Positions 12,501 to 15,500 of a stretch of 64,000 bases of DNA are shown here, piece by piece. The stretch's first letter is position 1. Each line of letters opens with the position of its first letter. The DNA comes from Aptenodytes patagonicus (lineage: Eukaryota > Chordata > Aves > Sphenisciformes > Spheniscidae). The notes below the pieces were generated by a model that saw only the letters and a program-made list of their open reading frames with translations, ran no database searches and was not told the DNA's origin. The position numbers and the translations under genes are program-made. The stretch spans positions 44,854,849 through 44,918,848 of the forward strand of contig NC_134981.1 of assembly GCF_965638725.1 (NCBI RefSeq), written 5' to 3'.

Positions 12501-15500
12501 GGTTTTGGTAGCGGGGGGGCTATGGGGTGGCTTCTGTGAGAAGCTGCTAGAAGCTTCCCCTATGTCCGATAGAGCCAATGCCAGCTGGCTCCAAGACGGA
12601 TCCGCTGCTGGCCAAAGATGAGCCAATCAGTGATGTTGGTAGCGCCTCTGTGATAACATATTTAAGAAGGGGGAAAAAACTGCTGCGCAACAGCAGCCGG
12701 GAGAGAGGAGTGAGAATATGTGAGAGAAACAACTCTGCAGACACCAAGGTCAGTGAAGAAGGAGGGGGAGGAGGTGCTCCAGGCACCAGAGCAGAGATTC
12801 CCCTGCAGCCCGTGGTGAAGACCATGGTGAAGCAGGTTGTCCCCCTGCAGCCCATGGAGGTCCATGGTGGAGCAGATATCCACCTGCAGCCCCTGGAAGA
12901 CCTGGACGCTGGAGCAGGTGGATGCGCCCAAAGGAGGCTGTGACCCCATGGGAAACCCGCACTGGAGCAGGCTCCTGGCAGGACCTGTGACCCCGTGGAG
13001 AGAGGAGCCCACGCTGGAGCAGGTTTGCTGGCAGGACTTGTGATCCCATGGGGGACCCACGCTGGAGCAGTCCATTCCTGAAGGACTGCACCCCATGGAA
13101 AGGATCCACGCTGGAGCAGTTCATGAAGAACTGCAGCCCATGGGAAGGACTCACGTTGGAGAAGTTCATGGAGGACTGTCTCCCGTGGGAGGGACCCCAT
13201 GCTGGAGCAGAGGAAGAGGGTGAGGAGGAAGGAGCGGCAGAGACAACATGTGATGAACTGACCGCAACCCCCATTCCCTGTCCCCCTGCACCGCTTGGGG
13301 GCAGGAGGCAGAGAAAATTGGGAGTAAAGTTGAGCCCGGGAAGAAGGGAGGGGTGGGGGGAAAGCGTTTTAAGATTTGGTTTTATTTCTCATTATCCTAC
13401 TCTGATTTGATTGGTAATAAATTAAACTAATTTCCCTGAGTGGAGTCTGTTTTGCCCATGACGGTAATTACTGAGTGATCTCCCTGTCCTTATCTCGACC
13501 CACAAGCCTTTTGTCATATTTTTCTCCCCCTGTCCAGCTTAGGAGGGGGAATGATAGAGCAGCTTGGTGGGCACCTGGCATCCAGCCAGGGTCAACCCAC
13601 CACAGTAATTTTTGGCACCCAATATGGGGCACAAACCCACGACCCTGAGATTAAGAGTCTCATGCTCTACCAACTGAGCTAGCTGGGCTAGAGAGAGCTC
13701 AACAAGCTTTCCTAGGCCTTGTGGGATTCTGGAGAATGCATATTCCAGGTTGTAGTCAGCTTGTGAGCCCTCTCTATCGAGTGACCTGAAAGAAGGACTA
13801 TTTTGAGTGGGGCCTTGAGCAACAGCAAGCTTTTGAGCAGATCAAACAGGAGATAGCTTGTAAGGTAGCTCTTGGGCGTGTCCGGATGGGACCAGCTGTG
13901 CAAAATGTGCTCTACACTGCAGCTGGGGAGCATGGTCTCACCTGGAGCCTCTGGCAGAAAACACCAGGAGAAACCTGAGATCAACCTCTAGGGTTTTGGA
14001 GCTGGGGGTATCGAGTGTCAGAAGCCCACTACACCCCAACTGAAAATGAGATACTAGCAGCATATGAGGGGGTTCGAGCTGCTTCAGAAGTTGTTGGTAC
14101 AGAAACACACCTTCTCTTGGCACCACAATTGCCTGTGCTACACTGGATGTTCAAAGGAAACATCCCCTCTACGCATCACGCAACCAGCGCTACATGGAGT
14201 AAGTGGGTAGCGTTGATCACGCAATGGGCTCGACTGGGGAAACCCAACCGCCCAGGAATCCTGGAAGAGATCATGGACTGGCCAGAAGGCAGAGATTTTG
14301 GAGCACTGCCTGAGGAGGTGGCTCGTGCCCAAGAGGCACCACCATATAATGAATTATCAGAAGATGAAAGGTGTTATGCTTTGTTTACTGATGGATCCTG
14401 TCATGTGGTAGGAAACCATTGGAAGGGGAAAGCTGCTGTGTGGAGTCCCACATGACAAGTCGTTGAAGCCACTGAAGGAGAAGGTGAGTCAAGTCAGTTT
14501 GCAGAAGTGAAAGCCATCCAACTAGCTCTGGAGATTGCTGAATGAGAAAAGTGGCCAGTACTCTTATCTCTATACTGATTCACGGATGGTGGCTAATGCC
14601 CTATGGGGGTGGCTACAGCACTGGAAGATGACCAATTGGCAGCGCAGGGGTAAACCCATCTGGGCTGCTGCATTGTGGCAGAACATCGCTGCCTGGGTAG
14701 AAAACATCGTTCTAAAGGTACGCCATGTAGATGCTCACATGCCCAAAAACCACCCCACTGAAGAACATCGAAACAACGAACAGGTAGACAAGGCTGTCAA
14801 AATTGAAGTGGCTCAGGTGGACCTGGACTGGGAAAGTAAGGGTGAGCTATTTGTAGCTTGATGGGCCCATGAAACATTGGGACATCTAGGGAGAGATGCA
14901 ACATACAGATGGGCTCGTGATCGAGGGGTGGACCCGACCATGGAGGCCATCACACAGGTCACTCATGAATGTGAAACATGTGCCGCAATGAAGCGAGCCA
15001 CACGAGTAAAGTCTCCCTGGAATAGAGGGCGGTGGCTGGGTTTTTGATATGGCGAGGCCTGGCAAATTGACTATCATAGAATCATAGAATCGTTTAGGTT
15101 GGAAAAGACCTCTAAGATCATCGAGTCCAACCACAAACCTAGCACTGCCAAGTCCACCACTAAACCATGGCCCTAAGCACCACGTCTACACGTCTTTTAA
15201 ATACCTCCAGGGATGGTGACTCAACCACTTCCCTGGGCAGCCTGTTCCAGTGCTTGACAACCCTTTCGGTGAAGACATTTTTCCTAATATCCAATCTAAA
15301 CATCCCCAGGGGCAACTTGAGGCCGTTTCCTCTCGTTACTTGGGAGAAGAGACCGACACCCACCTCGCTACAACCTCCTTTCAGGTAGTTGTAGAGAGCG
15401 AAAAGGTCTCCCCTCAGCCTCCTTTTCTCCAGACTAAACAGTCCCAGTTCCCTCAGCCGCTCCTCATAAGACTTGTGCTCTAGACCCTTCACCAGCTTCG

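Follow-up and report, generated by a model that had tools for sequence, protein, structure and literature searches.

In a 64,000-nucleotide stretch of the Aptenodytes patagonicus genome (contig NC_134981.1, forward-strand positions 44,854,849 to 44,918,848; hereafter the window, whose first letter is position 1), a provirus carries a complete antisense copy of a transfer RNA (tRNA), tRNA-Lys(CTT), behind its left long terminal repeat (LTR) and an 8-base spacer. The copy includes the CCA end and runs from A76 to G1 (13613–13688). We take the provirus to be an ERVL element, judging from its LTR and pol sequence and from the label in a first-pass annotation made from the letters of the window. 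On the plus strand, a target-site duplication (TSD), AACTC (12475–12479, the same letters as at 17627–17631), abuts the TG of a 1125-bp TG...CA left LTR of family A (12480–13604), which BLAST aligns at 83% to the A LTR on the minus strand at 43507–44590. The spacer GTAATTTT (13605–13612) occupies the position of GTCCTTTT in normal copies and is followed by an ordinary 18-base primer-binding site (PBS; 13613–13630), the complement of tRNA-Lys positions 59–76 with the CCA. The next base, 13631, is the complement of position 58, the site of 1-methyladenosine 58 (m1A58), and reads A where T is expected; 13632–13688 complements positions 57 to 1. Behind the tRNA lie a 13-base filler, TAGAGAGAGCTCA (13689–13701), and a pol fragment holding the end of the reverse transcriptase (RT) and RNase H (13702–15072, 79% identical over its length to 53070–51696 minus). 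After a nested insertion, pol resumes with the integrase core (15932–16563; 76% to 51691–51064 minus and 92% to L062, one of the loci retrieved from the genome and cited here by L numbers). A 3' part (16564–17039, 85% to L062) then leads to a 587-bp right LTR of a different family, B_r (17040–17626), and to the second AACTC (17627–17631).

The first-pass annotation had read the segment as a whole antisense tRNA-Lys(CTT), and dedicated tools agree. ARAGORN calls tRNA-Lys(CTT) at 13613–13688 on the minus strand and no other tRNA in the window, and Rfam model RF00005 scores the segment at 50.4 bits (gathering score 29, E = 7.9e-8). Without gaps, 69 of 76 bases equal those of a reference tRNA-Lys(CTT) plus CCA. 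The seven changes, as many as had been estimated, comprise six in CpG dinucleotides and a single non-CpG change, at position 58. Within the PBS, 15 of 18 bases match, TGG is kept at 13613–13615, and all three changes lie in CpG. The copy reproduces the primer beyond position 59 in the register of the PBS, gap-free from 76 to 1. At up to three mismatches the 18-base PBS is found at two further places in the window (42014–42031 plus and 56556–56573 minus; 0.02 expected by chance), and both run on into ordinary leader, in line with the earlier statement that two other copies keep the usual 18 bases. The spacer between LTR and PBS in these ERVL elements (13605–13612; 42006–42013) has 8 bases, GTCCTTTT or GTAATTTT; that of retroviruses usually has about 2.

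The tRNA had been said to jump into the RT end of pol. Pol does follow, but BLAST against other pol copies places the start of pol-like sequence at 13702 rather than 13689, and the 13 bases between (13689–13701) yield no alignment to pol, only short scattered matches. Both gag and the 5' part of pol are absent, so tRNA and filler open straight into the RT end. Four pieces behind the tRNA were searched with Pfam: among the stop-free pieces, RNase_H (14526–14858, 5.8e-11) scored above the cut-off, RT_RNaseH and rve (8.7e-7, in the integrase-core fragment) scored below it, and an antisense piece had no match. By k-mer search the filler has 9–11-mer matches at many unrelated places, and because these are equally good we claim no origin for it. 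A snap-back origin, in which TAG and CTCA on either side of an AG repeat would complement the final bases of the tRNA, was dropped in view of such matches elsewhere; reading the filler as diverged pol needs dropped bases and gives a poor match by eye. Evidence is divided on the CTAG microhomology that had been suggested for the join: in the pol copy at 53070 minus a CTAG stands some 20 bases upstream of it, but a closer copy, at 62452, has CTAA.

Copies of this kind recur in the genome at 39 or more distinct sites (a lower bound, because the searches score only the best candidates), 15 of the 39 ending at tRNA nucleotide 1. A read-through that had been described for the window copy is thus a recurrent event. 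A first genome search with 13590–13720 as query scored the best 40 of 57 candidates, window included. Its 39 other loci comprise nine ordinary leaders (L038–L046), one duplicate (L016, of L015) and 29 loci with tRNA beyond the PBS, making 30 read-through copies with that of the window. A second search scored the best 40 of 1086 candidates, and a whole-genome pattern scan gave 70 sites at up to three mismatches, 32 of them at 0–2, against 0 for the reversed pattern. Among these 32, one was a duplicated locus and one (L069) goes back to the leader; the 38 sites at three mismatches were mostly ordinary-leader-like, L073 and L074 being retrieved and L026, L043 and L044 already in the set. Together, the second search and the scan added 11 loci, nine of them read-through; the other two, L069 and L074, overshoot to about nucleotides 47–52 and then continue in normal leader. 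In 5 of the 39 sites (L026, L029, L030, L037, L065) no LTR 3' end lies directly ahead of the tRNA, and in L024 part of the PBS is missing. One tRNA-Lys isodecoder is the best match for 26 sites and another for 13, with a few (e.g. L014) looking intermediate. The tRNA end points span nucleotides 1–51. A clustering near D20 was considered and set aside, since 14–22 accounts for 8 of 39 end points and many other places are used too. We take the sites to be independent on the strength of how they continue, where the tRNA copy ends and which target duplication they carry, rather than on an all-against-all comparison of flanks. A scan of IMG/VR for the PBS gave no match in a collection that may not include this genome.

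Contig C33 (48.5 Mb) makes up 3.6% of the assembly and contains 10 of the 39 sites; its size beside C34 suggests that C33 and C34 are the W and Z chromosomes. It also carries identical PBS pairs on opposite strands, 24–51 kb apart (43301287/43343132, 38010700/38034342 and 47102015/47152598), which suggests large inverted repeats.

What follows the tRNA differs from site to site. Continuations were classed by matches to window pieces, by Rfam and by eye. Nine sites run into sense pol (the window copy, L009, L011, L017, L019, L021, L029, L035 and L072) and one into antisense pol (L012). Six enter an inverted LTR (L014, L018, L023, L027, L068 and L070), one a sense LTR (L032), and one, by reading, an inverted leader and then a short inverted U3 end (L034). 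Three have only a short U5 end (L022, L028, L030), three read as gag-like (L015, L064, L071), and 13 continue into host sequence or were given no class. Two are joined to U6 small nuclear RNA (snRNA): in L013 it is antisense (73 bits in Rfam), its 3' end directly adjoining the 5' end of the tRNA and no filler intervening, while in L067 it is in sense (60.1 bits) and followed by pol. Beyond its U6 part, L013 enters, by eye, the same stretch, GCAATTTTCCTGGAAGAACC..., as L026 does from its position 280 onward, where the stretch comes after the PBS with just a few extra tRNA bases. At the pol joins the shared bases number four in L011 (or six when a CpG change of the tRNA copy is set aside), three in L029 and L035, two in L019 and one in L017. 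In L063 a whole tRNA stands behind a right LTR and runs into host DNA, and no target duplication was seen there when one was looked for.

These joins bear on whether one ERVL lineage gained a whole tRNA behind its PBS and handed it down as a leader, for which the first-pass annotation had proposed looking for many copies with the same tRNA segment followed by gag. The arrangement of LTR, spacer, PBS and tRNA is indeed common to many copies, but the sequence and orientation after the tRNA vary by copy, end points range over nucleotides 1–51, two isodecoders are represented, and ordinary-leader copies exist for both family A (L046) and family B_r (L041–L045). On its distinct junctions, end points and isodecoders we reject descent from one such leader as very improbable. 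Even less credible is the chance insertion of a tRNA-Lys gene or a tRNA-derived short interspersed nuclear element (SINE) behind the LTR. ARAGORN and Rfam do score the segment as a tRNA, but it lies exactly in the PBS register, it carries a CCA, and there are dozens of cases, with the same antisense orientation in all 39 sites; register and CCA lead us to reject this origin. Unlike an amplified tRNA-derived SINE unit, the read-through sites have no tail in common. Positions 74–76 show no mismatch in those 24–25 of 30 copies whose alignment reaches them, the others being clipped or lacking that part. Eukaryotic tRNA genes do not encode CCA; the template was therefore a mature tRNA.

Left ends were mapped for 26 copies (22 LTR starts in one scan, plus L024, L067, L072 and L073); the mapped start of L020 belongs to its right LTR. 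We counted a TSD as robust where the right terminus could be matched or mapped to the end of an LTR, because a search for a 5-mer and CA by itself yields chance matches, as in two of six normal copies (L042, L044). Perfect 5-bp TSDs at LTR-like termini flank 11 of the 26. The right termini are U5 ends in the window copy, L009, L011, L022, L028 and L035, and inverted U3 ends in L012, L015, L018, L027 and L034. In L022 an LTR and the whole tRNA are followed by 9 bases that match the U5 end. L019, L037 and L073 have tentative duplications, their ends being less like an LTR, and partial ones occur in L032 (4/5 bases), L017 and L021 (3/5) and L023 (2/5). L010, L013 and L025 have no duplication, extra flanks included, and the right ends of L067 and L072 lie beyond the retrieved sequence. 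The LTRs of L035 are identical at 539 of 540 bases, and L035 is therefore young; those of L011 agree at 526 of 544. From the 11 perfect duplications it follows that integrase most likely inserted ready-made chimeras. In the window copy, whose TG...CA LTRs are flanked by a perfect 5-bp AACTC, the first-pass annotation had seen a possible fossil of an aborted reverse transcription. The chimeric join stands, but such a duplication makes insertion by integrase the most likely course, and not a mere abortion of synthesis.

The window copy also ends in LTRs of two different families, which align with each other only over their last 125 bases (82%). Its left LTR matches the LTR at 43507–44590 minus in the window and the LTR of L046, both family A, at 88% of aligned bases; its right LTR is 90–92% identical to the left LTRs of L041–L045, family B_r. 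Two elements therefore took part, a point that the first-pass annotation did not make. The sequence is of type A up to the tRNA and from 13702 onward nearest to B_r (92% to L062, in which the B_r element L044 continues), yet also 90% to a copy with another LTR type; identity to the pol of L009, L011, L017, L026, L029 and L035 is 77–81%. By this comparison the pol is likely, not certainly, from a B_r element. Normal reverse transcription gives matched LTRs, which a second-strand transfer between two co-packaged genomes does not (PMC9278108; PMC5651808). A mixed element of the reciprocal kind is formed by L020 with L060, with a B_r left LTR, an A-type interior of about 320 bases, an A right LTR and, behind it, tRNA to position 20. 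In L020 with L060 and in L039, A-type interiors extend just some 320–340 bases ahead of the A LTR, and for this reason family A seems to be non-autonomous and may depend on B_r proteins. After integration, the LTRs of the window copy could have been mixed by gene conversion or by ectopic recombination of proviruses; it is a copy that is old, with six CpG changes in its tRNA, and whose LTRs are common repeats. Its 5-bp TSD matches, however, the sequence changes at the end of the tRNA, which offers no homology for recombination, and the reciprocal element exists; we consider such later mixing unlikely.

Outside CpG sites, position 58 is the one hot spot of change in the tRNA copies. The complement of A58 reads T in 25 of the 39, A in 11 and C in two, with a gap in one. 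Non-T states thus occupy 14 of 39 cells, against 52 of 1945 at other non-CpG positions (binomial P about 8e-13 with copies taken as independent); for the first 30 copies under softer gap costs the figures are 12 of 30 and 50 of 1663. L013 matches the tRNA at 75 of 76 bases, the single change being at 58. Methylation of A58 in the primer of this species is presumed, and its 3' neighbour is G in the reference tRNA sequence. A misincorporation opposite m1A58 could have left such changes. Ordinary leaders bear on this, however: among 14 rows (from L038–L046, L029, L026, and the window copies at 42010 and 56573 minus), the base right after the PBS is A in 12, T in one and C in one, so that A at 58 is no proof of misincorporation. 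Ordinary leaders mostly read A and then CGA(A) after the 18-base PBS, which is the sequence of an over-extended primer copy with A for T at 58. Ten sites on eight small contigs share an ERVL leader, ACGAAGGCTTG (C35, C36, C51, C56, C74, C82, C89 and C92), perhaps a recent or tandem array.

The base at 58 may accordingly be either a misincorporation or a trace of a detour that led through the viral leader. By such a detour the strand would have moved onto the leader (A-CGAA) and, within CGAA, back onto the tRNA, thereby getting past m1A58. The A behind the PBS in the 12 leader rows, the many young normal copies that match the query through ACGAA, and the overshoot of L069 and L074 with their return to leader all speak for it; it requires two extra switches, and C (two copies) and a gap (one) are also found at 58, though C occurs in one leader (L043) as well. 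We give it a serious but less than even chance as the source of the non-T bases. With comparable reserve we offer the idea that an RNA modification has left its fossil trace in the 39 sites, where errors (A, C and a gap) would record RT behaviour at m1A58, and that the A beside the PBS in ordinary ERVL leaders is a fixed scar of that error; this is possible, though the odds lean somewhat against it.

Two repeats of the window lie outside this argument. The nested later insertion in pol (15073–15931, no strand assigned), a probably CR1-like repeat with ATCATAGAAT ends, has further matches at several window sites. Imperfect tandem repeats, strongly skewed between the strands, fill a long stretch at 21400–27900.

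The tRNA copies in PBS register with their CCA, the many differing joins, the duplications, the unlike LTRs and the excess at position 58 are observations of the sequence. We hypothesize, with a probability of about 0.8, that plus-strand strong-stop DNA passed m1A58, was extended to the primer end and then switched to a co-packaged complementary DNA (cDNA); the earlier suggestion that the halt was passed and the product joined to a pol-containing cDNA is supported. tRNA-Lys(CTT) would be the primer of the ERVL elements of this genome. The plus strand would copy U3-R-U5, the spacer and the 18 primer bases and, without halting, run on into the tRNA, the 15 sites that reach nucleotide 1 having been copied to the end. 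The second transfer between PBS copies would fail or be replaced, and the 3' end would switch template, with 0–4 bases in common at those pol joins that were examined. Possible targets within the particle are minus-strand pol, another LTR strand and U6 snRNA that was packaged. Products with an LTR terminus on both ends, a U5 end or an inverted U3 end on the far side, would be open to insertion by integrase with a 5-bp duplication. For the window copy, a family A read-through strand may have switched to pol of another cDNA, most likely B_r, and synthesis may then have continued through the B_r right LTR.

Several observations weigh against this hypothesis. A robust TSD is lacking in 15 of the 26 copies with a mapped left end. 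The tRNA–pol join of the window copy has no shared bases, and the source of its filler is unexplained. The assignment of its pol to B_r is only likely because 13702–14504 is also 90% identical to the window pol copy at 62452–63260, and the LTR behind that copy, at 63495, is just 72% like B_r and 81–85% like other LTRs. The 39 are a count of sites and give no rate per element, and the reference tRNAs do not come from the tRNA genes of this genome. Instead of TGG at the CCA, L023 and L034 read CAG and TGA, clipped by local alignment. The expected T at 58 in 25 of 39 copies implies faithful copying or bypass, or an unmethylated primer, and the prevalence of A behind the PBS of ordinary leaders counts on the same side.

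On the reading of the sites as a fossil record of m1A58, to which we give somewhat less than even odds, ERVL replication would have a regular side path, open to integrase, in which primer read-through with template switching yields LTR-tRNA-X chimeras. LTR-tRNA-U6 would be among them, and molecules of this kind were once put forward as ancestors of tRNA-Lys SINEs. A hypomethylated primer and a permissive reverse transcriptase are candidate causes. Dozens of natural failures of the stop, with readable outcomes, would allow strand-switch points and the bases placed opposite the modified A to be measured, and the same sites show co-packaged partners (a second element family, U6 RNA) and the ends that integrase accepts.

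Textbook accounts of retroviral replication include the stop at m1A58, on which most work has been done in vitro or with cell lines. Ohshima, Okada and colleagues reportedly put forward, in 1993, a strong-stop DNA model for the origin of tRNA-Lys SINEs in which a whole tRNA-Lys is fused to retroviral U5. In that model the products are SINE ancestors, whereas the copies described here look like integrase insertions; they nevertheless supply genomic LTR-tRNA fusions of the sort it assumes. The term 'strong-stop' does not occur in the consulted extract of a later review by Ohshima (PMC3747384). Each step is known separately, but a search of open-access literature brought up no genomic series of whole-primer chimeras and no paper on genomic insertions of an LTR with a whole tRNA, which does not show that none exists. 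In HIV-1 (human immunodeficiency virus type 1), plus-strand strong-stop DNA and its m1A58 stop represent the same step with the same primer class; the full-length primer copy arises there from unmodified tRNA in vitro and does not figure among the active templates, and synthesis passed A58 in TRMT6 mutant cells (PMC13191261). Here, by contrast, read-through products were joined to other DNA and fixed many times in the germ line. In RNA sequencing, m1A58 leaves a signature of arrest and of misincorporation on RT read-through, dA being inserted efficiently in an m1A-U context (PMC4787781); the signature considered here would lie in fossil DNA and not in a sequencing library. Virions of murine leukemia virus and Rous sarcoma virus each contain about one copy of U6, which fits the two U6 joins; packaged snRNAs have been suggested as a source of pseudogenes, many of which carry signatures of long interspersed nuclear elements (PMC4997597). 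In the penguin-family genome studied here, two insertions instead join U6 to LTR-tRNA, and in one of them the 3' end of U6 sits directly on the 5' end of the tRNA. HIV-1 proviruses with asymmetric LTRs likewise owe their unlike LTRs to second-strand transfer between co-packaged genomes (PMC9278108; PMC5651808), but there the transfer is made at the PBS, whereas here the far end of the tRNA leads into pol and the two LTRs belong to different families.

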